From Actinomycetes bacterium (GTDB taxonomy: Bacteria; Actinomycetota; Actinomycetes; Nanopelagicales; Nanopelagicaceae): 57,444 bases of DNA. Positions 20,039 to 50,667 of this stretch are shown piece by piece (the stretch's first letter is position 1; every line of letters starts with the position of its first letter). The stretch spans positions 1-57,444 of the forward strand of contig JAHEXJ010000005.1 of assembly GCA_023252155.1 (NCBI GenBank), in the 5' to 3' direction. The notes beneath the pieces were generated by a model. That model saw nothing but the letters and a program-made list of their open reading frames with translations. It was not told the DNA's origin and made no database searches. Position numbers and translations under genes: made by a program.

Positions 20039-20046
20039 GAGCCATG

Positions 20047-23374: not shown

Positions 23375-23378
23375 GCGC

Positions 23379-25301: not shown

Positions 25302-25314
25302 TTCGAGGAGCAAA

Positions 25315-26316: not shown

Positions 26317-26338
26317 TGGGAATTCCATCTTCAATTTC

Positions 26339-27790: not shown

Positions 27791-27857
27791 GTATTTCCGC
27801 CGTTTCAGTACGAGTGGAGGTCTTGGGCAAAACCAGCAATTGAACCTAACAGATTCT

Positions 27858-27960
27858 CCAGTCCATTGGAATTTCAGCACTTTGAGTTGCATGGAAAATT
27901 CATGGATCGCTCCCATTGATTCCTCAGTTTGGACTGGTGTAATCGGCCGTATTGGGAGCG
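27858..27960. promoter_or_regulatory. Interlocked inverted repeats in divergent promoter region
   Basis: In the 222-base gap between the aldehyde dehydrogenase and FMN-binding genes, two 8-base inverted repeats interleave in an A-B-A'-B' order. CCAGTCCA (27858-27865) pairs with TGGACTGG (27930-27937). CGCTCCCA (27908-27915) pairs with TGGGAGCG (27953-27960). This could be operator sites or a pseudoknot-capable leader RNA for the downstream FMN-binding gene; chance is not excluded. Confidence 0.35.
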
Positions 27961-32613: not shown

Positions 32614-33894
32614 CTAATTTGAAGAAGGAGAGTCATTTTTCGAAACACTAAGCGCAGTGCCAATAAAGCTAGAACCCAGCGGAAATAGTGGCAAAAGGCA
32701 GGCATTGAGCGCGTGGTAAACATCTGGTTTTCCCGGCCAAGTACCTTCAACAACTCTCAGGTCCGGACCAAGTTCGTGAAACCACGAGCCGCGAACTTTA
32801 TCGATCACGTGCGTATCGATATAGCGCCACCATGAGTCATAGTCTTGAAGAAATCTGGATTCCCCGGTCACTCTCCAAAGGGTGTAGGCGGTCATTACCG
32901 CCTCGGCTGCAACCCAGTGCATTCGGGAACGCACCACAGGCTTCTTATCCCAATCGATCGTGTAAATGAATCCATCGCTACCGTCGACTCTCCAACCGTA
33001 CTTTTTCGCGGTGTCATAGAGAGAGACGGCGGCCGAATTGATCCAAGAGAGATCCTCGTTGGATCCCGCCATTTGCATTTCTAAATGAAGGATCAGTCTG
33101 GACCACTCAAAAAGGTGGCCGATAGTGACTCCGTAAGGTCGGAAAGGGTCGGCTGGATTCTCAATATTGAAATCCTTGAGGATCTGCCACTTCTCGTCGT
33201 AGTGCTCTGGTAACAGCCAGTTATTTCCCTGCGCGAATTGAGTTACGGTCCTCTTACAAATTGCGTAAGCACGGTCTCGATACTTGACCTCACCTGTTAC
33301 GTCAAAGGCCGCACAGAGTGCCTCCACGGCATGCATATTGGCATTGATGCCTCGATAGGTATCCAATACGTTGAACGAAATGTCCCAACTGTTGTTCATC
33401 ATCATATATTCGGGATCCCAGTAATACTTGTCGATCAACGAATCGATCGATGTGAATAATTCAATCGCGCGTGGGCTGCCTACGGCCTTTGCTGTAGTAG
33501 CTGCAAGGAGAACAAACATTTGGTCGTAGGCCAGTTTGTCTCCCGAAATTGGCGCACCATCTAATCGGATGGCGTTGAAATAGCCATCGTTATCTCTATC
33601 TTTGAAGAGAGAAAATATGGAATTAACACCGTGATCAACTAAATCCAATGAGTCAGAGAGATCCAGAAGGTGGGCTAAGCCGAATACTTGCGTCATCCGT
33701 GCCTGGATGTAGACCTCTCGAGGTTTAGAAGAATCGACTTGCCCTCTTGAATTCAAGTAACCAAAGCCACCATCTCTCGAAACGGAACCTCGAGCGAATT
33801 TAATGAGTGAGAGAGCCTGATTCTTCAGGAAAGTTTCTCCGAAATTGGTCAGACCCGTTTCATCAAGGGGAGTGTTGGTCGATTCGTTATTCAC
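32614..33894 (-). CDS. AGE-family sugar epimerase/isomerase (YihS- or mannose-isomerase-like)
   Basis: 426 residues with an (alpha/alpha)6-barrel of the N-acylglucosamine 2-epimerase family. Hallmarks: GGFGYLNSRGQ, REVYIQARMTQVFGLAHLL, NANMHAVEALCAAFDVTG, a GHLFEWSRLIL segment with a catalytic-type His, RMHWVAAEAVMTAY, and a PDVYHALNACLLPLFP end. Known relatives interconvert aldoses and ketoses (mannose isomerase, sulfoquinovose isomerase YihS) or epimerise cellobiose. It is last in a minus-strand set with a sugar-acid dehydratase, aldehyde dehydrogenase and IclR regulator, so a sugar-like substrate is expected. A sulfoquinovose role is possible, but no other sulfo-pathway gene is present. 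Confidence 0.82.
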   Translation of the reverse strand: MNNESTNTPLDETGLTNFGETFLKNQALSLIKFARGSVSRDGGFGYLNSRGQVDSSKPREVYIQARMTQVFGLAHLLDLSDSLDLVDHGVNSIFSLFKDRDNDGYFNAIRLDGAPISGDKLAYDQMFVLLAATTAKAVGSPRAIELFTSIDSLIDKYYWDPEYMMMNNSWDISFNVLDTYRGINANMHAVEALCAAFDVTGEVKYRDRAYAICKRTVTQFAQGNNWLLPEHYDEKWQILKDFNIENPADPFRPYGVTIGHLFEWSRLILHLEMQMAGSNEDLSWINSAAVSLYDTAKKYGWRVDGSDGFIYTIDWDKKPVVRSRMHWVAAEAVMTAYTLWRVTGESRFLQDYDSWWRYIDTHVIDKVRGSWFHELGPDLRVVEGTWPGKPDVYHALNACLLPLFPLGSSFIGTALSVSKNDSPSSN

Positions 33895-33913
33895 TTTTCA
33901 ATTTCTCCAACCT

Positions 33914-34087
33914 TTATGACTTTGTTAGTCTTTGAAAAGAATCCTGCGCTGGATCTTCCATGATTTTTCGAACTTCCTGGGCGCACCGACAAGCCTTCGC
34001 AATCTTCTCGGCCCATTTCAAAGCATCTTCCACCGATTCAACACAATAACTGTAAATCCACCAATATGTACTTTGGTGCTAAATCTA
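33914..34087 (-). pseudogene. Frameshifted remnant of a YCII-domain protein
   Basis: Read on the minus strand, the 200-base gap between the dehydratase and isomerase genes contains two adjoining frames that together resemble the C-terminal part of a YCII/DGPF-domain protein. One frame gives STKVHIGGFTVIVLN; a shifted frame continues VESVEDALKWAEKIAKACR and ends QEVRKIMEDPAQDSF and a TAA at 33914-33916. The order GGFxVI, then SxEDALxWAEKI, then EVRxIME is that of YCII domains. No start codon or N-terminal half is present, so this is a decayed fragment, not a working gene. The identification is from memory of the family. Confidence 0.5.
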
Positions 34088-34094
34088 GTAACCC

Positions 34095-35828
34095 CTACGA
34101 TCGTCCTACAACTGGGGGCACAAATTTACGCATTTCCTCTGTTGGGGCCCGTAAAAAATCCAAATCGCAACCCTCATCGGCCTGCAGGACATGGGATTGG
34201 TAAAGTGCTGGCCAACCTCGCAAGTGTTTGTAATATCTTGGTAGCCAAGCCTTCCTTCGTTCCTCTAATTCTTGCTCGCTAATCTGTAAATTAAGGGTTC
34301 CGTTAGAAACATTGAGCTCTATCATGTCGCCATCACGGACGAGATCGATAGCGCCGCCAATGGCTCCTTCTGGTGAGACATGAAGAACGCATGTACCAAA
34401 TGAAGTCCCGCTCATCCGAGAATCCGTGATACGTACCATATCGACGACACCTTCGGCGGCAAGTTTCTTAGGAATAGGAATCATTCCCCATTCGGGCATT
34501 CCTGGAACTCCGACGGCACCGCAACCCGTGAGAACCAAGACAGTGTCTTTCGATACCGCCAAATCCGGGTCGTCAATTCTCTCATGCATATCCGAATACC
34601 CTCGGAAAACTATCGCTGGTCCAATGTGATTCAACAGGTCAGATGAGGCGGCAGATACTTTGATTACGGCGCCATTCTCCGCCAGATTCCCCGAAACCAC
34701 TTCGAAGGCACCGGTAGCCTGAAGGGGATTATTTATTGAGCGAATTGCCATGCTAGATCTGTTCTTTTGCGCAATTTGTTGCCCGAGAGTTTCTCCTGTT
34801 AATGTCTTTGCATCGAGTTCAAGAAGTGCTTGCATCTCGAATGCAAGAGCAGGCAATCCACCGGCTTGGTGGAAGTCTTGAATAAGCCCGCGACCAGAAG
34901 GTTCAACATCAGCGAGAACGGGAATATTTTTGCCCAACTCAGCGATGTCGCCAAGCGTTAATTGCCCACCGATGCGCCCGGAGATCGCGATTAAATGAAT
35001 CAGGGCATTTGTTGATCCCCCACAAGCTTGTAGTACGCGAACTGCGTTGCGGAATGCCTTCGGCGTCATAATGTCAGAAGGCAGAATCTGCTCTTTAACC
35101 ATTTTCACAATTTCAACACCAGAGTTAAATGCAGCCTCTCGACGTGCGGGATCTCCTTCTGGAATTGTTGAAGTCCCAGGAAGCGTCATTCCCAGGGCTT
35201 CCACCATGAGGGCAACTGACGATGCAGTACCCATTGTGTTGCACGCACCTAACCCACAGTTAAGACAGTCTTCAAATTCGTGCCAAGCTTCTTGAGAGAT
35301 CTTTTGAGCACGAAAATCCGCCCACATTCGCCAAAGATCTGTACCGGTGCCGATCCGCTTTCCTTTGTACATTGCTGCAGGTCTGGCGCCTGCGGTAAAC
35401 ATCACTGTCGGAAGGTTTGAACTTGCAGCACCCATGAGTGCGCCAGGCACACTTTTATCGCAATTAGCCAGCAGTACGACCCCATCAACTGGATATGAGC
35501 GTAGATATTCTTCGACCTCCATGGAGAGCAGGTTGCGATATAGCATCGCCGAAGGTTTCATCAAGTCCTCGCCAAGTGACATTACGGGGAAAACCATTGG
35601 GATTCCACCAGATTTTAGGATGCCGGCTTTGATGTCATCGATGTAATTGCGCAAGGGAAGATTGCATGGGTTGAGTTCACTTGATGAATCGGCAATACCG
35701 ATTATCGGTCGCTCATTGTTAGGTTCAAGTTCATAGCCAACGGATGCCATTACAACGCGGTGAGAGAGCGCAACTTCGTCATTGCCCGCGAACCATTCGC
35801 CACTTCGCAAGATATGTTTAGACTTCAT
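34095..35828 (-). CDS. IlvD/Edd-family sugar-acid dehydratase
   Basis: 577 residues. Fe-S and active-site motifs: LANCDKSVPGALMG, CLNCGLGACNTMGTASSVAL and a C-terminal ITDSRMSGTSFGTCVLHVSPE. The CNTMGTAS form is typical of the pentonate/sugar-acid branch (arabinonate and xylonate dehydratases) rather than the valine/isoleucine enzyme. It should convert an aldonic acid to a 2-keto-3-deoxy acid. It starts 20 bases after the paralogous aldehyde dehydrogenase in the same operon; with that dehydrogenase it suggests an oxidative, Weimberg-like route. The exact sugar acid is unknown. Confidence 0.86.
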   Translation of the reverse strand: MKSKHILRSGEWFAGNDEVALSHRVVMASVGYELEPNNERPIIGIADSSSELNPCNLPLRNYIDDIKAGILKSGGIPMVFPVMSLGEDLMKPSAMLYRNLLSMEVEEYLRSYPVDGVVLLANCDKSVPGALMGAASSNLPTVMFTAGARPAAMYKGKRIGTGTDLWRMWADFRAQKISQEAWHEFEDCLNCGLGACNTMGTASSVALMVEALGMTLPGTSTIPEGDPARREAAFNSGVEIVKMVKEQILPSDIMTPKAFRNAVRVLQACGGSTNALIHLIAISGRIGGQLTLGDIAELGKNIPVLADVEPSGRGLIQDFHQAGGLPALAFEMQALLELDAKTLTGETLGQQIAQKNRSSMAIRSINNPLQATGAFEVVSGNLAENGAVIKVSAASSDLLNHIGPAIVFRGYSDMHERIDDPDLAVSKDTVLVLTGCGAVGVPGMPEWGMIPIPKKLAAEGVVDMVRITDSRMSGTSFGTCVLHVSPEGAIGGAIDLVRDGDMIELNVSNGTLNLQISEQELEERRKAWLPRYYKHLRGWPALYQSHVLQADEGCDLDFLRAPTEEMRKFVPPVVGRS

Positions 35829-35848
35829 AGGTTGAACTCCTGTCCCCG

Positions 35849-37318
35849 TTAACTTTTCGCGAGATTCATTGCAACTTGATTGAGAAGCACAGGTGGCAAA
35901 CTCTGAAAAGTGACTGGCCGCAAGAAACGTGTGATTGCCGACAAGCCGACCGAGGTATGTAATGGTGCCGTTGATGCCGGATAGGGGCCACCGTGATGCT
36001 GTCCCGCGGTGACCGCGACCCCGGTGGGCCAGGCATTCCAGGCAACTCTTCCAACTTTGCCGGCTAATGCTCTTCCTGCAACCATGGCATCGGCGTCATC
36101 GGAATCTCCGAAAAGTGATCCTACGAGCGCTCCATCCATCTTCATTACCAAATCGATCACTTCAGAGATGCTTGTGTAGGTCAAGATGAGACCGGTCGGT
36201 CCAAAGCATTCGATGGTCAAGGCAGATATGTTTGCCAATAAGTGCTCAACAGTTGAAAGAAAAATCATAGGGGCGGAATAGAAACCGGCACCCTCTTTTC
36301 CTTGTCCTGACAGTATTTTTGGTGATATTAATACTCGTAGATCCTCGCGGTTCTTGTCGTGCAACGTTTTTGTCGCTTGGCTCAGAAAAGGCGATGGAAC
36401 ACGGTCAATAATTTGCGTCTCAATCTCGGCACTTAAGGCGGAATCTTTTGGAATAAACATGACGCTTGGGTTCGTGCAGAACTGGCCGTTTCCCATTAAC
36501 AGTGAATCGAGATAGGCGCACGCGAATACTTTTGGATCGGCAATTGAAGAACGCAACACGATTACAGGATTGACGCTTCCTAATTCTCCATAGAAAGGGA
36601 TGGGATTTTTACGCGCGGTTGAAATGTCAAAAAGTGCCCTGCCCCCATGTTTTGACCCGGTGAACGCCCCTGCTTGAACTCGTTCATCCCTTAGTAACAT
36701 CTGCCCCGATTCGACTCCGTGGACTAATGCCAAAGTACCCTTTGGAGCCCCGGCATCGACCATGGCTTTATTCGCGATTTCATACGTGCGAAGGGACGTT
36801 TGGGGATGTGCTGGATGAGCTTTGACTATCACGGAGCAACCTGCTGCAAGTGCACTAGACGTGTCTCCACCGAGCACGCTGAACGCAAAGGGGAAATTAC
36901 TCGCACCGAAAACCGCGACGATGCCTATAGGTACAAGAGTCCTGACGAATTGCGGATGTCCTTGAGGCACTGGTAATTCAACGGCAGAATCAACCAGCGG
37001 TGCAATGAGATCACCAGCCTGAATCGCATTTGCAAATTCTCTAATTTGAAAGGCTGTTCGCCCTATTTCCCCAGTTAATCGAATTTCTCCCAGACCGGTT
37101 TCTAAGTCAGAAATCTTAACGAGTTCCTCTATGTTCTCCTCCAGAGCATTTGCGATCGAATGCAAGCAGTTGGCACGAAACGAAGGCGACCTGGTTGACC
37201 AAATCTGCAGGCTGGTTTGAGAGAGTGTAATTATTTCATCAAGTTCGATGGAAGTTGTTTCGGGAATGACGGGACCGAATTTTTCATTAGTACGCGGGTT
37301 GACCGACTGAATCGTCAT
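35849..37318 (-). CDS. NADP-type aldehyde dehydrogenase, dioxovalerate dehydrogenase-like
   Basis: 489 residues, colinear with the dehydrogenase at 26339-27790. Glu245 lies in FYGELGSVNP and Cys281 in GNGQFCTNPS at identical positions, so the two are close paralogues. Expected to oxidise a 2-keto-semialdehyde (alpha-ketoglutarate semialdehyde) to the dicarboxylate. The frame is open from 37333, but ATG 37318 is 6 nt from AAAGGG and gives the family N-terminus. It lies between IclR (90-base gap upstream) and the sugar-acid dehydratase (20-base gap), consistent with a regulated sugar-acid operon. Confidence 0.87.
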   Translation of the reverse strand: MTIQSVNPRTNEKFGPVIPETTSIELDEIITLSQTSLQIWSTRSPSFRANCLHSIANALEENIEELVKISDLETGLGEIRLTGEIGRTAFQIREFANAIQAGDLIAPLVDSAVELPVPQGHPQFVRTLVPIGIVAVFGASNFPFAFSVLGGDTSSALAAGCSVIVKAHPAHPQTSLRTYEIANKAMVDAGAPKGTLALVHGVESGQMLLRDERVQAGAFTGSKHGGRALFDISTARKNPIPFYGELGSVNPVIVLRSSIADPKVFACAYLDSLLMGNGQFCTNPSVMFIPKDSALSAEIETQIIDRVPSPFLSQATKTLHDKNREDLRVLISPKILSGQGKEGAGFYSAPMIFLSTVEHLLANISALTIECFGPTGLILTYTSISEVIDLVMKMDGALVGSLFGDSDDADAMVAGRALAGKVGRVAWNAWPTGVAVTAGQHHGGPYPASTAPLHTSVGLSAITRFLRPVTFQSLPPVLLNQVAMNLAKS

Positions 37319-37408
37319 ACACATCCCTTTCAAAAAGAAGACGCTGCTTGAATTGCGCAGACCATAGCGTAATTACGGGCGCGTGCCGAAAAAACTGTTG
37401 GGAAAAGA

Positions 37409-38254
37409 TTACGAAAAGGGAGAAGATTCATGTGAGTTTCGAATTTCCGCGTAGGGAGAACCGCCTAGATCTAGCGAGAGCTCGTCCGCATAACGTCGCA
37501 CAATGATTCCAAATTCGGCCACTGAATCTGCACGTATTTCTTGTTTAAGGCTTGTAATGCTGATAGCGCCAGCGCACTTGCCTCCGTGTCCCCATACACT
37601 CGCCCCGATGCAGAGCACACCGAGTGTGTCTTCCTCGTCATCAACGGCGTAACCTCGATCAGCAATGCGTCCTAATTCGAGCAACAGATTGTCGACGTCA
37701 CGAATGGTATTTGGGGTGCGAAGAGGCAATCCATTTTTTTCAACGATCTCACGCACCTCGTCCGCAGGAAGCGTGGCAAGAATCGCTTTTCCGACGCCTG
37801 TAGCGTGTGGAAGTTCTTGCAAACCGAGGAAAGACGCGATGCGAATTGTTCCTGGTCCATCCACTTTGCCGATGGAGATGGCATAGCCATCATTAAGGAT
37901 CGCTGCACGAGAGGTGAGTCCGGTTTCGGCGGTAAGTTTTCGTAGAACCGGCATTGCAAGATCACGTAAAACAGTTTCGGAAACAACCTGATCACCCAAG
38001 CGCGCAAAAGCCATTCCAAGACGATAACGACGCGATGCGCCACTTCCGTGATCAGCTAGATATCTACGAGCCAACAAGGTCTGCAAAATGCTAAATGTTG
38101 CGCTTTTAGACAGTTCTAGAGCCCGAGCGACTTCAGAGCCGCTCATCCCCTCGGGTCCGGCTTTCGATAATGCGTCCACGATATCTAGGGCGCGTTCCAA
38201 GCTCTTCACTCGGTATCTTTCATTCGGTATCTTGTTCGGTATCACAGAACGCAT
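37409..38254 (-). CDS. IclR-family transcriptional regulator
   Basis: About 281 residues: an N-terminal winged helix-turn-helix (VKSLERALDIVDALSK, then SGSEVARALELSKSATFSIL) and a C-terminal IclR effector-binding domain (LPHATGVGKAILATLP, GYAVDDEEDTLGVLCIGA). IclR proteins repress or activate catabolic operons in response to a pathway metabolite. It lies between the minus-strand dehydrogenase-dehydratase-isomerase genes and the divergent plus-strand ABC importer-HyuAB genes and probably controls both. The open frame runs to 38401 across the promoter region, so ATG 38254 is preferred. Confidence 0.87.
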   Translation of the reverse strand: MRSVIPNKIPNERYRVKSLERALDIVDALSKAGPEGMSGSEVARALELSKSATFSILQTLLARRYLADHGSGASRRYRLGMAFARLGDQVVSETVLRDLAMPVLRKLTAETGLTSRAAILNDGYAISIGKVDGPGTIRIASFLGLQELPHATGVGKAILATLPADEVREIVEKNGLPLRTPNTIRDVDNLLLELGRIADRGYAVDDEEDTLGVLCIGASVWGHGGKCAGAISITSLKQEIRADSVAEFGIIVRRYADELSLDLGGSPYAEIRNSHESSPFS

Positions 38255-38333
38255 CTTGCACGTTAAAGGCTGCTCCGTCAAGCATCTCTCTCGTTTACGC
38301 TTGAATGGTTGAAAAAACATTTCCAGAAAAGTA

Positions 38334-38399
38334 TTGACACCTTTAAAATGACATGACAGGGTATGCCAACTTTCCGCATAGCGTTCGGTAGTTCCGAAC
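38334..38399 (+). promoter_or_regulatory. Promoter and IclR-type operator candidate for the importer operon
   Basis: A consensus -35 TTGACA at 38334-38339 is followed after 17 bases by a poor -10 (CAGGGT, 38357-38362), as in activator-dependent or tightly controlled promoters. Downstream, GTTCGG-TAGTT-CCGAAC (38383-38399) is a perfect 6-base-arm inverted repeat at a position suited to repressor binding. The adjacent IclR protein is the obvious candidate binder. Confidence 0.5.
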
Positions 38400-38423
38400 A
38401 CCAGAGAATGAGGGGATGTATTT

Positions 38424-39572
38424 ATGCTTCAAAGTCATCGACGAATCGCATTACTCTTTGTTGGGGCTACTGTTTTACTTACCGCCGCTTGTTCGAACGG
38501 TGGTCCTTCGGCTTCCTCAAGTGCCTCAACGCAGTCCCATTCTGTTGCCGCCGCAGTTCTGACACACAAATTCGCCTGGGGAGACTTCACCCTCGCCTCG
38601 CGAATTGTCGACAAACTCAAGGCAGGGCAGAAGATCAACATTATTGACGATATTCAAGGCACTGCCCTTCCAATCATGGGGGCCGAGATGCGCATTGGAA
38701 TGCAACGCGGCTGTGACAAAGAACAGAGCCGCCTAGGTATCAATTGCCGCTTGACCGGTCCAGTCACCACCAATGCAGGTGCACAATTGGCTGAACTTGA
38801 AACTCTTCTCAATGGAAATCAAGTGGACTGCCTAGCTCTTCAGTCACCATTGCCAGACCAGTATGTCGACGTCATCAACAAGTACGTCGCCGCTGGAATT
38901 CCAGTATTTACATTCAACAATGACGTACCGAATTCAAAGCGATTCGCATTTTATGCATTGAGCGAAAAGCAAGCTGGTGCCATTAACGGAGCGCAGACTG
39001 CGCAACTGGTTAAAGCCAAGGGCTTGAAAATCGATACGATCGCGATGGGTAGTGGTCAACCAAGCGGCCCATGGGCCCAGAACAGAATGGCTGGATTTGA
39101 AGAAGGGTATAAATCAGTCTTCCCGAATGCCAAATTCTTCAACGACAGCAAGAGTGGCATCCCCACCGGCGATAACTTCACCACACAGGAAGTTCTCAAT
39201 TCGGTTGGTCCGTTCCTACAAGCTCACCCTAACGTGAACCTCTTCTTCCATACCGATCAAGGAGTCGAAGGAGTAGGCATCATTATCCAAAATCAGAAAC
39301 TTTCTGGAAAAGTCTGGACTTCCGGCTTCAATGTCAGCGGTCCTATTCTTGATTCAATTGACGCAGGAAACACTTTGGTCACAATTGATCAAGGGTTTGA
39401 CAACCAGGCGGAAGCGCCAGTCAGCGCGTGTGTCGATTACCTCACTACAGGAACAGTTCCTGCAGATCCATTGCAGTTTCTAAAGCCGATTGTAATTACA
39501 AAGGCCGGCGGAACTGGTTTGCAGACGCCAGCTGAAGCTCGAGTTCGTTTGCAACAGGCTACGACAAAGTAA
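38424..39572 (+). CDS. Substrate-binding lipoprotein of ribose-type ABC importer
   Basis: 382 residues: lipoprotein signal with lipobox LTAAC (Cys23), a Ser/Ala-rich linker, then a type 1 periplasmic-binding-protein fold (two Rossmann-like lobes, e.g. LNGNQVDCLALQSPL, AAGIPVFTFNND and FFHTDQGVEGVG). This is the ribose/xylose/galactose class of binding protein. GAGGGG lies 8 nt upstream of the ATG. First gene of a seven-gene plus-strand operon; a strong hairpin follows the stop, which would raise its mRNA level relative to the permease. The ligand is unknown. Confidence 0.87.
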   Translation: MLQSHRRIALLFVGATVLLTAACSNGGPSASSSASTQSHSVAAAVLTHKFAWGDFTLASRIVDKLKAGQKINIIDDIQGTALPIMGAEMRIGMQRGCDKEQSRLGINCRLTGPVTTNAGAQLAELETLLNGNQVDCLALQSPLPDQYVDVINKYVAAGIPVFTFNNDVPNSKRFAFYALSEKQAGAINGAQTAQLVKAKGLKIDTIAMGSGQPSGPWAQNRMAGFEEGYKSVFPNAKFFNDSKSGIPTGDNFTTQEVLNSVGPFLQAHPNVNLFFHTDQGVEGVGIIIQNQKLSGKVWTSGFNVSGPILDSIDAGNTLVTIDQGFDNQAEAPVSACVDYLTTGTVPADPLQFLKPIVITKAGGTGLQTPAEARVRLQQATTK

Positions 39573-39587
39573 CAAAGATGCAAGAAG

Positions 39588-39619
39588 GACCTGCGGTTGA
39601 TTCGAGACAACCGCAGGTC
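39588..39619 (+). other. Intercistronic hairpin after the binding-protein gene
   Basis: GACCTGCGGTTG / CAACCGCAGGTC, perfect 12-base arms with an 8-base loop, no T-run afterwards. Typical of hairpins that stabilise the binding-protein mRNA or partly terminate before the permease gene. Confidence 0.75.
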
Positions 39620-39648
39620 TCATCTCCCCACTTGAAAGGTTGAAAATC

Positions 39649-40701
39649 ATGGCTTCGATTAAAGTTGAGAGTCCCGGGAAGCGTAAACGCGGCCTTGCCC
39701 TCGACCAGCTTCGAACGGTGGGACTAGTCCTAGCAATCGTTCTTTCTGGACTTGTCTTTCAATCTCAGCGTTCGGCATTCTTCAGCAGTGAGAATGTATT
39801 GACACTTTTGCGGTCAATGTCCTCGCTAGGAATTATGGCCTTCGCGCAGATGCTAGTGATACTTCTCGGCGAGATAGATCTATCGGTGGGCGCCATATAC
39901 GGTCTTTCGGCTACCACGTTGGCCGTTCTCTGGTTGGGCGGAGGGGCTTTACCATTTCACGTCCCATTCATTTTTGCCCTAATGGCCGCTTTACTAGTGG
40001 CTGTCGCAATAGGTGCTGCAAATGCATTTCTTACAAGTGTCGTCAAAATCCCGTCTTTTATTGCAACGCTCGGGTTTCTCAGTCTCGCTCAGGGCTCAGA
40101 ATTACTCTTGAGCAATGCATCAACATTTAATCCGGCGTATAACACGCCATTGCCATCCCGTGGAGAATTAAGATTTTTTCACATTCTCGGTGGCTCTCAA
40201 CTTCCCCTTGGAATTCCGATTCAGGTCGGGTGGCTTGCTGCAATGCTTTGCTTATTCTTATTCTTGCGCCACCGAACGTTATTTGGATTTCGGCTTGTCG
40301 CGATAGGAGGGAATCCGACCGCTGCTGAGATTGCTCGTCTTCCCATTCGAAAATATAAGTTTGTCGTGTTTATTTTGTCCGCTCTGATGGCAGCACTTGC
40401 CGGCATTCTAGATTTTTCGTATGTGGGCTCCGTCGGACCGAACTCTGGTGGATCCTTGGTTTTCCCCGTTATCGCTGCTGTGGTTATTGGCGGAGCGAGT
40501 CTTAATGGGGGATGGGGAACGATTCCAGGGACTCTCTTAGGTGCGACTCTTCTGGCAGTTCTAGCAAATGGGCTCGCTCTCCTTGGCGTGGGTGCATTTG
40601 CGCAACTTCTCTTCGTTGGTTTCGTGACCATCGGCGCGGTTACCCTGGACAGAGTAACTCGACAGTTGGCGAACAGACGATCAAGCCGTGTGACCAAGTG
40701 A
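39649..40701 (+). CDS. Ribose-type ABC importer permease
   Basis: About 350 residues with 8-10 predicted membrane segments and the family block QMLVILLGEIDLSVGAIYGL (RbsC/XylH type), plus the cytoplasmic ATPase-contact loop GGNPTAAEIARLPIRKYK. GAAAGG is 9 nt from the ATG at 39649, whereas the upstream TTG (39640) abuts it, so I start at the ATG. It overlaps the ATPase gene (GTGA) and would form the channel with the lipoprotein and ATPase encoded next to it. Confidence 0.88.
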   Translation: MASIKVESPGKRKRGLALDQLRTVGLVLAIVLSGLVFQSQRSAFFSSENVLTLLRSMSSLGIMAFAQMLVILLGEIDLSVGAIYGLSATTLAVLWLGGGALPFHVPFIFALMAALLVAVAIGAANAFLTSVVKIPSFIATLGFLSLAQGSELLLSNASTFNPAYNTPLPSRGELRFFHILGGSQLPLGIPIQVGWLAAMLCLFLFLRHRTLFGFRLVAIGGNPTAAEIARLPIRKYKFVVFILSALMAALAGILDFSYVGSVGPNSGGSLVFPVIAAVVIGGASLNGGWGTIPGTLLGATLLAVLANGLALLGVGAFAQLLFVGFVTIGAVTLDRVTRQLANRRSSRVTK

Positions 40702-42245
40702 CCGTGGTGGAAGTCCGAGGCGCACATAAGCGCTTCAAAAATACACGTGCCCTTGATGGTGTTGATCTCACTTTAAAATCCGGGGAAATTCTCGGAATCG
40801 CCGGACCGAACGGCGCTGGGAAAAGCACCCTTACCCGTGTGCTCTCTGGTGAAGAAATTCTGGACTCCGGAGAGATTCGCATTGACGGAGAAATATTGTC
40901 CTTGGATCGTATTAGCGAACTAGTGGCGGTAGTCCACCAAGAACCTCAGGTGTGGCTGAATCTGACGGTGGCCCAAAACCTCATGGTCGGTAACGAAAAT
41001 TCAAAATTAACACCACCATCAATATCCGCTGAGCAGTTGGAAGTCCTTAATCGAATCGGCATTTCGAATATCGCTTCCGTGCTGCTTGCAGATTGCTCTC
41101 TCGCTGTGAGGCAACGGGTAGAGATTGCGCGTGCTCTTGTACGAGATGCGCGAGTGATACTTCTTGATGAGCCAAATTCAGCTTTGACCGATGATGAGTC
41201 TCAAGCCCTCTTTCTTTTTATGCACGAATTGGCCGCTGCTGGTCACGTGGTGGCGCTTGTCACCCATCGGCTTGCAGAACTAGTTAAGCACTGCAGCCGA
41301 GTTGTTGTAATTCGAGATGGCCGAGTTGCCGTCGAATTGACGGGGGCTCAACTCACCGAATCTGCGATTGCGGGCGAACTTGTTGCGGGAGAACAAGGGA
41401 AAGCCATAAGTCGCAAGTCTGCTTCAGATTCTCTAATACGAAGAAAGACATTGATTTCGACAAGTCGATGGTCTGATGCTCAGGGATCGTTTTCGAACAT
41501 CTCCTTAGAAGTCACGCAGGCAGAGATAGTCGCCATTGTGGGGGTCGAAGGTTCTGGTGGTAGAGAAATGGTTTCCGCTCTTGGAGGGATGCGTTCGTAC
41601 AGCGGGGAAATAACGATCGCTGATCTGGAGGATAAGGGCGATAATCACACGCAGATTGCTTATCTGTCTGCCAATCGCACGGAAATGCTCTTTCACAACA
41701 TGACGGTTGGCGATAACTTGGTGTTACGTCTAAAGGATCCCATAATTGCAAACCGATTTGGTTGGTTGCGAAAAGGCAATATCCATTCGCAGGCCACCGA
41801 ACTTGTAAATAAATATTCGATTCGAACCGACGGGGTTGAGCAGATGCTCACCTCGTTGAGTGGCGGAAATCAACAAAAAGTTGCCATCGCGGCCGCGATG
41901 GCTTCAAATCCATCACTTCTGTTGGTCGAAGAACCTACTCGAGGAGTCGACGTGGGGAGCAAGCGAGAGATTTACCAAATGCTTCGTGAATACGCAGATC
42001 GCGGTCGAGCAGTGATTGTATTTTGTACGGAAGCGCCTGAAGCATTTGAATTGGCTGATCGCGTGATAGTTATTCAGCGTGGCGCATGTCGCGATACTTT
42101 AAGACCCAGTGACTTTCCTGACATCTTTTCTTTCGCAAGTGCTTTGGCAAAACTTGAATTAATCGACGTAGCGGAACACTACTCAAATAAGTCGGCTGTT
42201 CTTTCACCGCCGCTTTCTTCGAATGAAAGGGATAATCTGGCGTGA
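40698..42245 (+). CDS. Ribose-type ABC importer ATPase (two-domain, RbsA-like)
   Basis: About 515 residues with two ABC domains. Domain 1: Walker A GPNGAGKST, Walker B VILLDEPNSAL. Domain 2 is the usual degenerate type with VGVEGSGGREM at the Walker A position, then LSGGNQQK signature and LLLVEEPTRGVDVGSK. The frame is open from 40512, but that part overlaps the permease gene; GTG 40698 overlaps the permease stop and starts the family-like sequence. The signature of domain 1 is altered (DCSLAVRQRVEIARAL instead of LSVGQ-type), a common variation. Substrate unknown. Confidence 0.86.
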   Translation: MTVVEVRGAHKRFKNTRALDGVDLTLKSGEILGIAGPNGAGKSTLTRVLSGEEILDSGEIRIDGEILSLDRISELVAVVHQEPQVWLNLTVAQNLMVGNENSKLTPPSISAEQLEVLNRIGISNIASVLLADCSLAVRQRVEIARALVRDARVILLDEPNSALTDDESQALFLFMHELAAAGHVVALVTHRLAELVKHCSRVVVIRDGRVAVELTGAQLTESAIAGELVAGEQGKAISRKSASDSLIRRKTLISTSRWSDAQGSFSNISLEVTQAEIVAIVGVEGSGGREMVSALGGMRSYSGEITIADLEDKGDNHTQIAYLSANRTEMLFHNMTVGDNLVLRLKDPIIANRFGWLRKGNIHSQATELVNKYSIRTDGVEQMLTSLSGGNQQKVAIAAAMASNPSLLLVEEPTRGVDVGSKREIYQMLREYADRGRAVIVFCTEAPEAFELADRVIVIQRGACRDTLRPSDFPDIFSFASALAKLELIDVAEHYSNKSAVLSPPLSSNERDNLA

Positions 42246-44368
42246 ACAAAGAGATACGTTGGCGAATTGGCATGGATACCGGTGGGACTTTCACTGACTT
42301 GGTGGCGTTGTCCGATTCCGGCGAAATGCGACTCGCTAAAGTTAGTTCGACACCCCATAATCCAGCCGAAGCGGTTTTTGTGGCGTTAAGGGACTCCAAG
42401 GTGAATCTAACTGATCAGTTAGATGATTTTGTTCTAGGGACCACGATTGCCACCAATGCCGTAATTATGAGAAGTGGTGCGCCAGTAATATTGCTCACGA
42501 CAGAGGGTTTCGAGGATGTCCTCTATATACAGCGGATTGATCGTCCCGGACGTTATGACTTGCAGTGGGTTAAATCTGATCCGTACGCCAATCGTCAATT
42601 TACGATCGGTGTTCAAGAGCGCGTTCTTGCTGACGGGCAGATACGAAAGGAACTCACTCAATCTGAGATCGAGAGGGTAGTCACACGGATTAGAGAGTTC
42701 TTGCGGATTGAACCAGAGGCGGCAATTGCTGTCTCATACCTCTTTAGTTACGTGAACCCGGAACATGAACGACGAACTGCCGATAGATTACGTGCAGAAT
42801 TTCCAGACACTCCTATTTCGTTATCGAGTGAAGTGTCACCCGTCTGGCGCGAGTACGAGCGAACAGCTACTACTGCGATGGACGCCTACGTAAGTTCCAT
42901 GGTGGGCAGATTTGCAAAGGAACTTGAACAAGGCTTAAGCGTCGAAAGAGTTGGCGGCTGGCATGCGCTCATGAAATCCAACGGTGGCCAAGTGCCTCTT
43001 AGCCATTCTGCAAAGCGTCCAATTGAATTGGTACTTTCTGGTTTAGCGGGCGGCATGATTGCCGGAGCGTATTGGGCCAAGGCTGTTGGCTCCACAAAGG
43101 CAGTTACGCTGGATATGGGTGGCACTAGCGCAGATGTTGGTGTTGTCGTAGATGGTCATTTGCAATACACAGGTCTATTCGAAGTCGAGTGGGGCCTGCC
43201 GATTGCCGTTCCCATCATTGATGTGTCCACTATTGGTGCCGGTGGTAGTTCGATTGCATCGATGGGCGCGGACGGGTTGCTTCATGTTGGTCCTGCAAGC
43301 GCAGGCGCAGACCCAGGCCCAGCATGTTACGGACGCGGCGGCGTTAATGCCACGGTGACGGATGCGAATGTGGTCATGGGGCGGTTGCATCCTGAACATT
43401 TCTTAAATGGCGATTTACTCCTTGATTCCCAACGTGCAAGGGCAAGCATTGACTCTCTTGCTACCGAGCTAAACCTTGATGTTGACGATACTGCCGATGC
43501 GATCCTTTCTCTTGCGGTGGAGAACATGGCCGGTGCAGTTCGTTTGGTAACGGTGGATCGCGGACACGACTATCGAGAATTTGATTTGGTTGCATTTGGA
43601 GGTGCGGGCCCACTGCACGCCGTGGAAATCGCCAAGCGAATGGGAATGCGGAGAGTGATTATTCCTCCAACTCCAGGTCTCGTTTCTGCATTCGGTTCAA
43701 TCATTGCCGATCAGAGAGTTGATCGTCGCACCACTGTGGTTCGCCGCCTAGATCAACCAGACGCTCTCAAGCTGCCAGACATTCTTGCCAAGCTCGCTAC
43801 TGAGGTTCACGATGAGTTATCTCTTCAGAGGCGAGCTGATGAACGTGGTGAAATCGTGGTCACGACATATGTTTCATGCCGATACCTTGGCCAGAATTAT
43901 GAGCAGGAGATTAGGACATATAGAGGCCGTCATGATCAATCATTTGAATCAATGCTTCCGATTGATCCATCGGCACCCAATTTTGTAGATCGACTCTCAG
44001 ACATGTTTCATGCGGCGCATCTTCGTGCATATGGATATGAGATGCGAGATCAAGTTATTCAATCGGTCTACGTGGCGGCTACGGCAACAATTGCGAGTAG
44101 TTCGGTGCAATTCGTTCCCTATGGCGCGGGTGTCGACAAACCCAATCTTGTTAATCGCTCATTACTTACCGCTCCTGGTACTTGGGCTGATGCCGTCGTT
44201 GTAGATCGTAATGATCTTCGGCCAGGTTTCACTTTGGACGGTCCGGCCGTAGTGGAGGAATCGAACTCAACTACTTACGTTCCTCCCGGATATGTACTTG
44301 AAGTCGATTCAACTTACTGCCTCATTATCAATTCGCAAATTGCTCCCACAGTAAGGACTAACTCGTGA
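42242..44368 (+). CDS. HyuA-type hydantoinase/oxoprolinase/carboxylase subunit
   Basis: 708 residues of the HyuA family (ATP-using ASKHA fold), with phosphate-1 motif DTGGTFTDLVALSD at the N-terminus and a second DMGGTSADVGVV motif mid-protein, then GGAGPLHAVEIAKRMG. Family members with HyuB partners open cyclic amides (N-methylhydantoin, 5-oxoproline) with ATP or carboxylate ketones (acetone and acetophenone carboxylases). GTGA overlap with the ABC ATPase gene upstream and with hyuB downstream ties it to the importer. The reaction here cannot be decided from sequence; the neighbouring small Cys protein tilts towards a carboxylase-like complex. Confidence 0.84.
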   Translation: MNKEIRWRIGMDTGGTFTDLVALSDSGEMRLAKVSSTPHNPAEAVFVALRDSKVNLTDQLDDFVLGTTIATNAVIMRSGAPVILLTTEGFEDVLYIQRIDRPGRYDLQWVKSDPYANRQFTIGVQERVLADGQIRKELTQSEIERVVTRIREFLRIEPEAAIAVSYLFSYVNPEHERRTADRLRAEFPDTPISLSSEVSPVWREYERTATTAMDAYVSSMVGRFAKELEQGLSVERVGGWHALMKSNGGQVPLSHSAKRPIELVLSGLAGGMIAGAYWAKAVGSTKAVTLDMGGTSADVGVVVDGHLQYTGLFEVEWGLPIAVPIIDVSTIGAGGSSIASMGADGLLHVGPASAGADPGPACYGRGGVNATVTDANVVMGRLHPEHFLNGDLLLDSQRARASIDSLATELNLDVDDTADAILSLAVENMAGAVRLVTVDRGHDYREFDLVAFGGAGPLHAVEIAKRMGMRRVIIPPTPGLVSAFGSIIADQRVDRRTTVVRRLDQPDALKLPDILAKLATEVHDELSLQRRADERGEIVVTTYVSCRYLGQNYEQEIRTYRGRHDQSFESMLPIDPSAPNFVDRLSDMFHAAHLRAYGYEMRDQVIQSVYVAATATIASSSVQFVPYGAGVDKPNLVNRSLLTAPGTWADAVVVDRNDLRPGFTLDGPAVVEESNSTTYVPPGYVLEVDSTYCLIINSQIAPTVRTNS

Positions 44369-46146
44369 AAACTATGAAGATGTCGACTGAAGTCAACAAA
44401 ATCACATTGACACTTATTCATCGCCAGCTTGTGAACATATGTGATGAGATGGCAGTGTCAATGATGCGAACGGCATACTCGCCGATTTTTTCCGAGGGGT
44501 TAGATTTTTCGACGTTGATTCTTGATCGCGAAGGGCACCTGATCGCAAATGCAGGTTTGAACCCGTCCATGCTTGGTGCTTCTCTCTATGCTGCGACTTG
44601 GATCGTGCGTGAAGTGGGCGCAGAGAATTTCGTTGAAGGCGATGTGTACGTCCATAACGATCCATATCGTGGTGGTAGTCATATGCCTGAGCACATGATG
44701 GTGATGCCAGTTTTTGAGTCCGGAGTGCTCGTTGCCTTCATCGGCAATATTGCACACATGGCTGAGATCGGTGGAATGGCCCCTGGATCATTCGCCGCGA
44801 CAGCTACAGACGTTTATCAAGAAGGACTCAGATTGCCTCCCGTGCTTCTTTATCGCAACGGCGAACCGGTGCAGGATATTTGGCGCATCATCTTGTCGAA
44901 CCACCGCACTCCCAAGGACTCGTGGGGTGACTTACATGCTATGTATGGTTCTCTCAAGATAGGTAGGCGCCGATTACTTCAAATGTTTGAAGATCGAACA
45001 CCCGAAGTGGTAACGCAAGTGTTCTCTGACATTCAGGACTACACCGAGAAGGGCTTACGAGAAAAAATTAGAGCTCTTCCAGATGGCGTTTACTACGGCG
45101 AAGAGTGGTTTGAGGACGATGGAATTACGGCAGTACCAATTGGCGTCAGGCTTAGTCTGATTGTTGATGGCGATGAAATCATTTTTGACTTTACCCGATC
45201 AGATCCGCAAGCCAACGGTCCAATCAATGCGCCATATGTAGTCACGATGTCGGCATCGCTGAACGCCTTGCTTTACATGATCGGGGGAGACCTGCCCGTA
45301 AACGCCGGTTTAAATCGTCCGGTGCGAATTGTGACCAAGGCGGGCACGGTTTGTTGTGTTCGACTTCCTGGATCCTGCGTTGGAGGTCAGACCGAGTACC
45401 AACCAAGAATCATGGAGATGATTATGGGCAGGGTATTCGGGCAAATCTTGCCAGAATTGACTACTGCCGCCAGCGGCAACACATCATTGAACTTCCTTTT
45501 CGGTGGACTAGATCCGAGGACTGGCGATTACTACGCCCATTACCATTTTGAGGCAACTGGTTGGGGAGGTAGAGCCCTTACGGATGGAAATAACGCCACA
45601 ATGCCTCCGCACGCCAATTGTCGCAATACTCCGGTTGAAATCTTCGAGAGCCGATGGCCATGGATTCATGAGAAGTACACATTAGCTAGGCAAGAGGTGG
45701 GTCATGGTGAGCACCGTGGCGGTTCTGGAGTAGTGCGGATTATTGAAGTTGCCGCAGAAACAATTACCGTGAGCGCGCTTTCTGACCGTGCGAGTCAACC
45801 ACCCTGGGGTGCCTTTGGGGGAGGAGACGGAAGTCTTACGCGCATTGACATAAGTCCATCAGGCTCGACGGATTTTGTAAGTTTTCAATCGCACTTCAAC
45901 TTGGTAAGTCCGACAAAATTCACCAATATTCGCCTTCATCGTGGAGATCGAGTTCGTCTCACATCTCCTTCGGGCGGGGGATATGGATTCCCAGAGAAGC
46001 GCGAACCGGAACTAGTTGCGCTGGATGTTCAAGACGGGTACATCACTCGCGAGCAGGCCGCATCCATCTACCAAGTTATCTTGGACGAAAACGGCCGTCC
46101 AAACGACATTTCAACAGCGACCATTCGAAAGGAGCGCGCGCGATGA
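44365..46146 (+). CDS. HyuB-type hydantoinase/oxoprolinase/carboxylase subunit
   Basis: 593 residues of the HyuB family: CDEMAVSMMRTAYSPIFSEG and DLDFST-type start, VHNDPYRGGSHMPEHMMV metal-site-like block, FDFTRSDPQANGPINAP, and a Gly-rich C-terminus ending SPSGGGYGFPEKR. HyuB is the obligate partner of HyuA. The GTG start overlaps the hyuA stop, and its end overlaps the small Cys-protein gene (ATGA), so the three are made together. Confidence 0.86.
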   Translation: MKTMKMSTEVNKITLTLIHRQLVNICDEMAVSMMRTAYSPIFSEGLDFSTLILDREGHLIANAGLNPSMLGASLYAATWIVREVGAENFVEGDVYVHNDPYRGGSHMPEHMMVMPVFESGVLVAFIGNIAHMAEIGGMAPGSFAATATDVYQEGLRLPPVLLYRNGEPVQDIWRIILSNHRTPKDSWGDLHAMYGSLKIGRRRLLQMFEDRTPEVVTQVFSDIQDYTEKGLREKIRALPDGVYYGEEWFEDDGITAVPIGVRLSLIVDGDEIIFDFTRSDPQANGPINAPYVVTMSASLNALLYMIGGDLPVNAGLNRPVRIVTKAGTVCCVRLPGSCVGGQTEYQPRIMEMIMGRVFGQILPELTTAASGNTSLNFLFGGLDPRTGDYYAHYHFEATGWGGRALTDGNNATMPPHANCRNTPVEIFESRWPWIHEKYTLARQEVGHGEHRGGSGVVRIIEVAAETITVSALSDRASQPPWGAFGGGDGSLTRIDISPSGSTDFVSFQSHFNLVSPTKFTNIRLHRGDRVRLTSPSGGGYGFPEKREPELVALDVQDGYITREQAASIYQVILDENGRPNDISTATIRKERAR

Positions 46147-46394
46147 GTTGGGTCGAACTGCGAAAACCATGGCATGACACCAGTGTTGATTATTGCGATG
46201 TCTGCGGCAATTTGCTTATTCACGAGTACTGGGAGTTCAACGCCGGGGGAGAGATCATGCGTGCGTGTCGTGAAGACGATGAGCAACTTTGGGCTCGTCT
46301 CGAAACTTTCCGCGCGACTTACCCGTCAACGACCGAGAATTCTATTTATCGTGCTCGGCTAACTGATACCAAATTTCCCCAAGCGAAGGAGTGA
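46143..46394 (+). CDS. Small Cys-containing protein, possible third HyuAB subunit
   Basis: 83 residues with a DYCDVCGNLLIHEYWEF start and a later MRACRED: a C-x2-C pair and a third Cys, plus nearby His and Asp, suggest a small zinc or iron site. Small metal proteins of this sort accompany HyuA/HyuB in acetone-carboxylase-type complexes (the gamma subunit), so it may be a third subunit. It overlaps hyuB by 4 bases and the U32-like gene follows 5 bases after its stop. I do not recognise a named family with certainty. Confidence 0.68.
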   Translation: MSWVELRKPWHDTSVDYCDVCGNLLIHEYWEFNAGGEIMRACREDDEQLWARLETFRATYPSTTENSIYRARLTDTKFPQAKE

Positions 46395-46399
46395 ATGTC

Positions 46400-47314
46400 A
46401 TGTTGAAAAGTCCACTCGATGTTCCAATATTTCCTTACCAACATGGCGTACCAGTGAGTTCGGGGCATTTTGCCGATGGTGCGCATTTTCGCATCGAAAT
46501 TCCTAGCGTCGAAGGTCCAGCAGTAATGGAAGCGGCACTCGATGCCGCACGGAAGCACAACGTGACGATCAACCGTGTATCGCAAGGTTCAGGTGCGATG
46601 TTGATGAAGAATTCCGAACTCTCCGACATGGCTGCCTTAGGCAGAGAAAATGGAATTGAGGTCTGTCTGTTTGTTGGTCCGCGTGAGTCATTTGATATCG
46701 GAGTCAGCGCGCATTCTTCTGGTGGAGTTGGCTTGTCTGGTCAACTAAGGGGGATCCGTCAACTCTCATACGGTGTTGAAGACGTGATTCGCGCTATTGA
46801 AACTGGTATTCGAAGTTTTCTCATTCCTGACATCGGTTTGCTCGCCATCTTGGCGGGAATGCAACGAGCGGGCGCGATACCTATCGAATGCGTATGGAAG
46901 ATGAGCGTGGCTTTAGCCCCCTCAAACCCAGCTGCCATTCGAGTTCTTGCCGATCTCGGCGCAACAACGGTTAATGTGCCTTCAGATATGTCTTTTGCAG
47001 ATCTCGCTGAAATGAGAGCTGCCGTCGACCTGCCTATCGATCTCTACGTCGAAGCTCCGGACAGTCTTGGCGGTGTAGTTCGTGGACATGAAATCGCTGA
47101 TCTCGTCGCGATTGGTGCGCCGTTGTATGCGAAGTTTGGTCTTCGAAACGCCCGGGATGTATATCCGGTCGCGGACCATAATCTAATGGAAGCGAGTATG
47201 AATGTACGCGCCAAAGTTGCTCGCGCTGCTGTTGCTCTTGAGTGGCTTGCAAGATCTGGAAGCGATGCGATCCAATCAAAGCCTTTTGCTTTAGGGCTAG
47301 CCGTACCGCGTTAA
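46400..47314 (+). CDS. U32-peptidase-like TIM-barrel protein
   Basis: About 304 residues forming a predicted beta/alpha barrel with similarity to the peptidase U32 family (blocks such as VEDVIRAIETGIRSFLIPDIG, LADLGATTVNVPSDMSFADL, VDLPIDLYVEAPDSLGG). The Cys clusters that bind Fe-S or metal in UbiU, RlhA and TrhP proteins are not seen, so it is unlikely to be one of those RNA- or quinone-modifying enzymes. AAGGAG is 8 nt from ATG 46400, so I prefer it over GTG 46391. Last gene of the importer-HyuAB operon; a hairpin terminator follows. The role is unknown; it may be an isomerase or lyase for the imported compound. Confidence 0.7.
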   Translation: MLKSPLDVPIFPYQHGVPVSSGHFADGAHFRIEIPSVEGPAVMEAALDAARKHNVTINRVSQGSGAMLMKNSELSDMAALGRENGIEVCLFVGPRESFDIGVSAHSSGGVGLSGQLRGIRQLSYGVEDVIRAIETGIRSFLIPDIGLLAILAGMQRAGAIPIECVWKMSVALAPSNPAAIRVLADLGATTVNVPSDMSFADLAEMRAAVDLPIDLYVEAPDSLGGVVRGHEIADLVAIGAPLYAKFGLRNARDVYPVADHNLMEASMNVRAKVARAAVALEWLARSGSDAIQSKPFALGLAVPR

Positions 47315-49213: not shown

Positions 49214-49240
49214 AAACCATGTCCTCTCGAGACTTACTTG

Positions 49241-49292
49241 GCAATCGACTAAGTGAGCCGATTGCAAACAACGTAGCACCGCATCGCAATCG
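49241..49292. promoter_or_regulatory. Repeated GCAATCG element upstream of the secreted propeller gene
   Basis: GCAATCG at 49241-49247, its inverse CGATTGC at 49259-49265 (7-base arms), and a second direct copy at 49286-49292. It lies 28-79 bases upstream of the ATG at 49213, in a promoter position. Possible operator. Confidence 0.4.
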
Positions 49293-49577: not shown

Positions 49578-49651
49578 GTGCCGTTCGTGCGGATCAGACC
49601 CTATCAGCGTCGAGGGGGTTGATTTCACAGGTTAAAGAGACACCATTGAGC

Positions 49652-50667
<1,016 letters not shown>

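Follow-up and report, generated by a model that had tools for sequence, protein, structure and literature searches.

What would a bacterium take up and degrade with a sugar-type importer, sugar-acid enzymes and a HyuA-HyuB enzyme pair that are all encoded around one IclR regulator? This question is raised by a locus at 32614-47314 of a 57,444-nucleotide stretch of DNA (hereafter, the window) from an Actinomycetes bacterium of the Nanopelagicaceae (assembly GCA_023252155.1, contig JAHEXJ010000005.1). A sequence-only reading of the window had proposed that the genes on both sides of the regulator form one regulon for a sugar-like cyclic (lactam) or ketone compound. Our preferred answer, to which we give an even chance, is an IclR-controlled import-and-degrade regulon in which an enzyme that opens cyclic amides with ATP, together with a gamma-like subunit, would feed a non-phosphorylative sugar-acid route made up of an IlvD-type dehydratase, a U32-like barrel and an aldehyde dehydrogenase (ALDH).

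Under this proposal, the Rbs-type importer would take up a sugar-like (polyhydroxylated) ring compound, and HyuA, HyuB and a small CxxC protein would activate its cyclic amide carbonyl with ATP and open the ring, yielding an (amino-)aldonic acid. IlvD would then dehydrate this acid at C2/C3; on the resulting 2-keto-3-deoxy acid the U32-like barrel would act next (by C4 dehydration or retro-aldol cleavage), and ALDH would oxidise the resulting aldehyde into central metabolism. The proposal draws direct support from the gene set and its order, a shared operator layout, a HyuB clade with its metal motif and small partner, and the pairing of U32 with IlvD.

The operon recurs in Streptosporangiaceae, with matching predicted operators in L076

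All eleven genes of the arrangement read from the sequence were found, with IclR lying between minus-strand ALDH, IlvD and AGE genes and a seven-gene plus-strand operon. The IclR gene (37409-38245, minus strand; PF01614/PF09339) sits in an open reading frame that extends to 38401, and comparison with Streptosporangiaceae suggests that its true start is probably the GTG at 38245. The plus strand encodes an RbsB-like, sugar-type lipoprotein substrate-binding protein (SBP; 38424-39572; Peripla_BP_4, PF13407), an RbsC-like permease (39640-40701; BPD_transp_2, PF02653), an RbsA-like double ATPase (40698-42245; two ABC_tran stretches, PF00005), HyuA, HyuB, an 83-amino-acid Cys protein and the U32-like protein. 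The ATPase frame opens at 40512, and its likely start is the GTG at 40698, overlapping the permease stop. Overlaps of 4 bases (GTGA or ATGA), noted earlier for most genes, occur at five of the six plus-strand junctions (permease/ATPase, ATPase/HyuA, HyuA/HyuB, HyuB/Cys and Cys/U32).

A scan of a genome collection with HyuB recovered three relatives at 79-80% identity, all of them from Streptosporangiaceae (loci L076-L078). In all three, a divergent IclR gene is followed by SBP, permease, ATPase, HyuA, HyuB, Cys protein, U32, IlvD and ALDH genes in one row; here IlvD and ALDH lie on the same strand as the importer operon, directly after U32. Identities between the window and these loci were 60-61% for IclR, 72-74% for SBP, 72-73% for the permease, 49-54% for the ATPase (a single ATPase frame was called across the permease stretch in L078), 70% for HyuA, 79-80% for HyuB, 66-69% for the Cys protein, 72-73% for U32, 59% for IlvD and 37-38% for ALDH. 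The Streptosporangiaceae loci have a GC content of 69-70%, versus 50% for the window operon, and any transfer is thus probably old. By this comparison, conservation of the gene order exceeds chance, since the order recurs at 70-80% protein identity (HyuA, HyuB, SBP, permease and U32) despite the difference in GC content. The neighbourhood check suggested by the sequence-only reading therefore found conserved synteny, which lies outside the window's own family. The block is uncommon among the window's own relatives: in 199 related genomes, a search with SBP (E 1e-40) kept only two other relatives, each 33% identical, and the other HyuB matches kept were at most 36% identical.

GTTCGG-N5-CCGAAC palindromes flank the divergent IclR/SBP promoter region of the window. 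Predicted IclR operator 1 (38234-38250, one mismatch) overlies the likely IclR start, while predicted operator 2 (38383-38399) is a perfect copy 24 bases upstream of the SBP start. Exact GTTYKG-N5-CCGAAC occurs at three places in the 1.81-Mb host assembly, two of which are operators 1 and 2. Among the three Streptosporangiaceae loci, the operator scan covered L076 (Streptosporangium), where matching palindromes at 3885-3901 and 3905-3921 by IclR and at 4010-4026 before SBP form an equivalent layout (7 operator-pattern sites found versus 2.4 expected). Looser patterns tell against the operators: allowing one mismatch, the assembly holds barely more sites than a reversed control (44 vs 37), and two-mismatch sites are not enriched within the 57-kb window (3 found vs 2.6 expected). 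The locus of Agrobacterium vitis, which has a LacI regulator, contains no site of the GTTCGG-N5-CCGAAC type. The case for these predicted sites is made by their position, their exactness and the same layout in L076.

The U32-like barrel is paired with sugar-acid dehydratases

Does the U32-like protein (46391-47314, plus strand) belong to a sugar-acid route? Its family label needed qualification, because the window protein alone scores 20.6 bits against PF01136, below the Pfam gathering cut-off of 22.4, whereas all 42 aligned homologues match this family at E ≤0.1 (best 9.4e-11). The alignment comprises the window and 41 of 46 loci, with L054, L061, L042 (stop codon reported), L044 and L047 left out. 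U32-like homologues occur in 61 of the 199 genomes around the organism, the window's included. An IlvD or MR_MLE dehydratase lies within seven genes of U32 in 24 of 42 loci, and in 10 of the 42 IlvD directly adjoins U32. A forty-third locus (L025) was left unscored, as its U32 frame was missed in gene calling; the neighbour-cluster labels rest on one or few Pfam-scanned members each, many of the loci are close to orthologous, and contig ends truncate some of them.

IlvD itself was found at E ≤1e-200 in 26 of the 199 genomes, every one of which has a U32 homologue too (vs 61/199 overall); such a draw has a chance of 4.6e-16 if the genomes are independent, which they are not (kinship was not removed). 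In the 25 genomes other than the window's, IlvD adjoins U32 in 11, lies 5-6 kb away in 4 and is elsewhere in 10, and the six IlvD proteins closest to that of the window (78-82%) all adjoin U32. The window IlvD (34095-35828, minus strand; PF00920/PF24877) scores 736 bits against NF004784 (cut-off 539) and 681 bits against the L-arabinonate dehydratase model (cut-off 882), a fit at the level of the subfamily rather than of the exact aldonate. In L028, L031 and L035, U32 accompanies a zinc alcohol dehydrogenase, an SMP-30-type lactonase, IlvD and ALDH (i.e., an oxidative sugar pathway), although the IlvD frame of L028 contains an internal stop. L031 and L035, both of whose contigs end close by, showed no further gene for the reaction that follows IlvD. 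In Thermomicrobium, U32 stands with MR_MLE and a metallo-hydrolase. Together, these associations are new evidence that the U32-like barrel goes along with sugar-acid catabolism.

A separate observation is a recurrent U32-SDR-APH-fold kinase-enolase run in L041, L053, L062 and similar loci, which suggests phosphorylation of glycerate and its conversion to PEP (phosphoenolpyruvate) after U32.

The reaction that follows IlvD is usually catalysed by a DHDPS-family enzyme. No known family of 2-keto-3-deoxy-acid dehydratase or aldolase was found in the window locus by a DHDPS search of the assembly, which has two DHDPS-family genes: one on another contig (C49; presumably DapA) and one at 23343-24296 of the window, in a likely hydroxyproline cluster described below. 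The host assembly (114 contigs) is 83.8% complete and 4.24% contaminated, so the absence of a gene from it is weak evidence.

We considered whether the U32-like protein might be an accessory factor, as UbiU/UbiV and TrhP are, or might catalyse another step such as an isomerisation, with DHDPS- or FAH-family enzymes following IlvD. PF01136 is its sole recognisable family, 22 of the 42 homologues weakly match the UbiU model and 19 the TrhP model, all of which would be compatible with an accessory role. Several further results count against the step that we propose for U32. DHDPS-family genes occur in 4 of 42 U32 loci (beyond ALDH in L028, and in L056, L059 and L063), which weakens a role assigned by elimination and means that the reaction is not settled in this way. 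The U32, SDR, APH-like kinase and enolase locus type, with IlvD nearby, also has an FAH-family gene whose product could perform the step after IlvD. Three genomes of the same family (L037-L039) pair U32 with amide hydrolases without IlvD or MR_MLE, which speaks against a uniform sugar-acid role. Finally, AlphaFold2 models of the protein were poor (pLDDT 44.8 from a single sequence and 53.5 from four).

An accessory role or a different step is nonetheless unlikely in our view. Conserved Cys residues are the Fe-S ligands of the U32 members UbiU/UbiV, and the 42 U32-like sequences have no invariant or nearly invariant Cys, so a cluster of that type is not expected. Their invariant residues include E36, E41, R62, E90, D147, K170, N195, D199, D217, E221 and K248. 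Moreover, neither the window locus nor the named genes of the Streptosporangiaceae operon include a DHDPS gene, and U32 is found alongside sugar-acid dehydratases whether HyuAB is present or not. We thus retain the proposal that the U32-like protein may act on the 2-keto-3-deoxy acid.

A Foldseek search with the U32 model returned generic barrels, with deoxyribose-phosphate aldolase first (E 4.3e-4; TM-scores 0.31-0.47 among the nine best). We take the protein to be likely a barrel and no more, and do not use Foldseek as evidence of aldolase function. A PDB sequence search with the 42-sequence profile gave no match, and scans with U32 of viral contigs (55 pattern matches) and genome contigs (335 pattern matches) gave no relative. 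Matches to N-acetylneuraminate lyase (E 0.17 and worse) were rejected as chance, and an apparent U32-IlvD fusion in G143 (a 703-amino-acid open frame) proved to be two consecutive genes whose open frames overlap. In L037, L038 and L039, U32 lies between Amidohydro_2-, creatininase- and FmdA/AmdA-family hydrolase genes, together with an ABC importer, possibly an amide-linked setting. Our literature search, outside which most subscription journals lay, surfaced nothing relevant on U32 in sugar-acid pathways.

A HyuAB clade with an altered metal site and a small partner

What chemistry would HyuA and HyuB perform? The window proteins, an ATP-binding alpha subunit (HyuA, 42242-44368, 708 amino acids; PF05378/PF01968/PF19278) and a metal-bearing beta subunit (HyuB, 44365-46146, 593 amino acids; PF02538), have lengths of the hydantoinase branch. 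For comparison, the caprolactamase subunits have 696 and 581 amino acids (PMC8453981), and another report gives a comparison length of 720, ~150 above Hyd beta (PMC5214803). The nearest PDB entries are N-methylhydantoinase (7hk5), which is best, and then caprolactamase (6yra), ahead of ketone carboxylases. Scores against the caprolactamase equivalogs NF050156 and NF050157 (453.4 and 271.4 bits) do not reach their cut-off of 1000.

The metal ligands of CapB are reported to be Asp41, His99, Asp102 and His124, and the last three of these are described as fully conserved in the family (PMC8453981). Aligned to 6yra, window HyuB has D47, H106, E109 and H131 at these positions, three of the four identical to CapB. 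CapB Asp102 is replaced by Glu109, a new His110 follows it, and CapB Asp127 is replaced by Glu134, yielding a variant site of D47, H106, E109, H110, H131 and E134 (HxxEH instead of HxxD). In a HyuB tree from which the duplicate loci L087, L088 and L090 were left out and in which the duplicate pair L089/L093 was kept, this HxxEH...HxxE signature marks 12 of 29 rows, which group as a single clade (100/99); D is kept in each of the remaining 17 rows (16 of them distinct). Members of the clade come from the window, Streptosporangiaceae, rhizobia and relatives, Sulfitobacter, Methylobacterium and the haloarchaeon Halalkalicoccus. A scan of 396 genomes of the phylum placed five HyuB proteins above threshold, of which four, all except the window's, have the usual D motif; these four loci (G371, G473, G522 and G531) had promising scores and were rejected on that ground. 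What is new here is a HyuAB clade with an altered metal site and a small partner. A second HyuB in the same assembly, on another contig (G000:C36:5728-7443), is 31% identical to that of the window.

The small partner is the 83-amino-acid CxxCG...C protein (46143-46394, plus strand), which matches no Pfam or NCBIfam family. Similar small proteins adjoin or are fused to HyuB of the same clade. In Rhizobium (L081), a 67-amino-acid protein with the same motif is encoded between HyuA and HyuB, and a tblastn search of plasmids with this protein hit 19 records, and these coincide exactly with ranks 2-20 of the 344 HyuB records. In the record at HyuB rank 1, from Halalkalicoccus, a 49-amino-acid gene with the motif lies immediately upstream of HyuA. 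A. vitis (L080) and one R. leguminosarum (L084) carry the Cys domain fused N-terminally to HyuB; in Methylobacterium the Cys gene lies 8 kb from HyuB. A profile of 11 Cys proteins detected the gene in 11 of 11 fetched member loci, ten of them represented in the profile; the Cys gene of L098, outside the profile, was detected at E 9.4e-26. The same profile matched none of 16 non-member loci, nine of which had short flanks only. Because of its fusion to HyuB and its co-occurrence with the HyuB clade, we predict that the Cys protein is a gamma-like third subunit of HyuAB.

This prediction faces contrary evidence from the window's side of the clade. The window's own Cys protein finds no match in plasmids and only a doubtful 51-residue match in the 199 related genomes. 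Actinobacterial and other Cys proteins are alike in little beyond CxxCG (hhalign probability 27%, 16 columns, E 6.6e-4), a profile built from the non-actinobacterial proteins fails to find the actinobacterial ones, and the four actinobacterial Cys proteins have three conserved Cys, not four.

In the published scheme, hydantoinase clusters are two-gene and a gamma subunit with four Cys belongs to the ketone carboxylases Acx/Apc (PMC5214803). By its gene content, the HxxEH clade does not fit this rule, as its HyuB has a small Cys gene beside it, nearby or fused to it. With alpha and beta subunits of the hydrolase type, a gamma-like protein and an altered metal motif, the clade tests the purpose of the third subunit.

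Clade companions favour cyclic-amide opening

The small partner could instead mean that HyuA-HyuB-Cys is an ATP-dependent, acetone-carboxylase-like enzyme that adds CO2 to an imported sugar-like ketone, whose product then enters the IlvD-U32-ALDH route. The alpha-beta-gamma order with gamma downstream is that of acxABC, and Cys-conserving gamma subunits are described only for Acx/Apc (PMC5214803). However, the subunit lengths (708/593) are of the hydantoinase type, the best PDB relatives are a hydantoinase and caprolactamase, and 46 weak PDB matches of the Cys profile include no carboxylase gamma chain, for which reason we rejected the Cys protein as an acetone-carboxylase gamma homologue. In addition, aminotransferases stand beside clade members: GabT with succinate-semialdehyde dehydrogenase (annotated names) in Shinella, class III enzymes in Sulfitobacter and A. 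vitis, and a class IV enzyme in Methylobacterium. Ketone carboxylation is therefore decidedly doubtful, and from subunit sizes, nearest relatives and companion aminotransferases elsewhere we infer that opening of a cyclic amide is favoured over ketone chemistry; of the two substrate types named by the sequence-only reading, the cyclic one has gained and the ketone has weakened.

L082 and L085, in which HyuA-HyuB-Cys is accompanied by succinate-semialdehyde dehydrogenase and by an aminotransferase that in L085 is GabT, resemble a route from a gamma-lactam (2-pyrrolidone) to succinate.

Which cyclic amide might the window system open? The A. vitis plasmid locus (L080) resembles the window in its SBP (60% identical), its permease (59%) and a HyuA and Cys-HyuB fusion of the same clade; unlike the window, it continues with a class III aminotransferase, an SDR and a GntK-type gluconokinase instead of U32-IlvD-ALDH. 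The best equivalog of this SDR is gluconate 5-dehydrogenase (334 bits vs a cut-off of 408). Read as a route, the locus could open an aminodeoxy-aldonolactam that is transaminated to 5-ketogluconate, reduced and phosphorylated, and because it reads in this way, we guess that a hydroxylated lactam may be the substrate in the window too. Spelled out in full, the locus would catabolise a polyhydroxylated lactam (aminodeoxy-aldonolactam or oxidised iminosugar) with a three-part ATP-dependent lactamase that has a small metal-type subunit of its own and a changed metal site, followed in Actinobacteria by IlvD and by U32 as a new class of 2-keto-3-deoxy-acid lyase/dehydratase, while in A. vitis the opened acid would pass through 5-ketogluconate and gluconate to 6-phosphogluconate; in so specific a form we consider this rather unlikely. 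From a five-carbon lactam, IlvD would yield, in its open form, 4-hydroxy-pyrroline-2-carboxylate, an intermediate of the hydroxyproline pathway.

Some results sit poorly with a lactam substrate. The window contig has no aminotransferase of class III, the only class searched for (the assembly has five on other contigs), and none was seen in the Streptosporangiaceae operon, which leaves the fate of the amine unexplained. Some clade members also use an importer of the branched-chain-amino-acid type. No relevant paper on catabolism of iminosugars or sugar lactams by such enzymes surfaced in the literature search, with the same restriction on journals.

A likely hydroxyproline degradation cluster occupies 20044-27916 of the window and ends 4.7 kb from the locus. 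It encodes DAO-type and Fer2_BFD flavoproteins, a DHDPS-family protein (of the deaminase type by context), a zinc alcohol dehydrogenase, an ALDH and a 4-hydroxyproline-epimerase-like protein (357.7 bits, cut-off 376).

The locus is a mosaic of two lineages

Do the minus- and plus-strand genes belong together? In maximum-likelihood trees, the window U32 and HyuB group with Streptosporangiaceae (100/99 and 100/100, respectively), while the window IlvD nests in sequences of its own genus (96/96), within a set of 11 at 100/100. Rows of the IlvD tree were drawn from U32 loci only, and this bias was checked by the IlvD search of 199 genomes. The window ALDH (35849-37333, minus strand; Aldedh, PF00171) is 58% identical to the ALDH of own-family U32 loci (L031/L043/L063); it weakly matches many NCBIfam models, none near its cut-off among the 25 matches listed. 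By these trees, the window locus is a mosaic, with HyuB and U32 of Streptosporangiaceae affinity and an own-genus IlvD. Although the IlvD and U32 of the window differ in descent, the two genes occur as a pair in each of the two source lineages, and the window joins one partner from each.

The remaining minus-strand gene encodes an AGE-family isomerase (32614-33894; GlcNAc_2-epim, PF07221), for which the nearest NCBIfam model, D-mannose isomerase NF051846, scores 386.9 bits, below its cut-off of 600. None of the 46 loci searched, those of Streptosporangiaceae included, contained a match to AGE, and AGE is not near U32 or IlvD in the four AGE loci inspected of eight in relatives. AGE therefore probably lies outside the conserved set, as a local or peripheral neighbour.

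The mosaic and the AGE distribution would suit two separate pathways that share a regulator region by chance (HyuAB-Cys-U32 versus a local sugar-acid set of IlvD, ALDH and AGE), but this is improbable because the Streptosporangiaceae operon has a different IlvD and ALDH directly after U32, meaning that the association arose or persisted twice. That the two gene sets belong together as one regulon has strong support: HyuAB-Cys-U32 and IlvD-ALDH stand behind the same importer and IclR in 3/3 Streptosporangiaceae loci, with matching palindromes in L076, and of the regulon first claimed only AGE falls away.

Beyond the locus, the window encodes a GmrSD_C-matching protein (49619-50329; PF07510, E 2.5e-18) whose N-terminus is signal-like, next to a BNR-repeat protein (47390-49279).

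Comparison with known systems

If the proposal is true, the U32-like barrel would be a candidate sugar-acid breakdown enzyme rather than a mis-named 'peptidase'. The regulon offers a direct handle, with one regulator, one importer and one ligand to find. Like the non-phosphorylative Weimberg and Dahms pathways, the locus has an IlvD-type aldonate dehydratase and an ALDH, to which own-family loci add a dehydrogenase and a lactonase. Unlike those pathways, it has a U32-like barrel and no DHDPS-type dehydratase or aldolase, and entry would be via HyuAB rather than a dehydrogenase and lactonase. With acetone carboxylase AcxABC and acetophenone carboxylase it shares the alpha-beta-gamma order and a small Cys-containing third protein; it differs from them in that this protein has 83 amino acids and three conserved Cys instead of four, and in its short alpha and beta subunits, as in hydantoinases. 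A further likeness is to CapAB and N-methylhydantoinase HyuAB, whose HyuA and HyuB domains and lengths are kept together with CapA Asp11 and Asp295 and CapB Asp41, His99 and His124 (residues named in PMC8453981). Unlike CapAB, the window has Glu109-His110 for Asp102 and Glu134 for Asp127, and its HyuAB is accompanied by a small Cys partner, a sugar-type importer and sugar-acid enzymes as neighbours.

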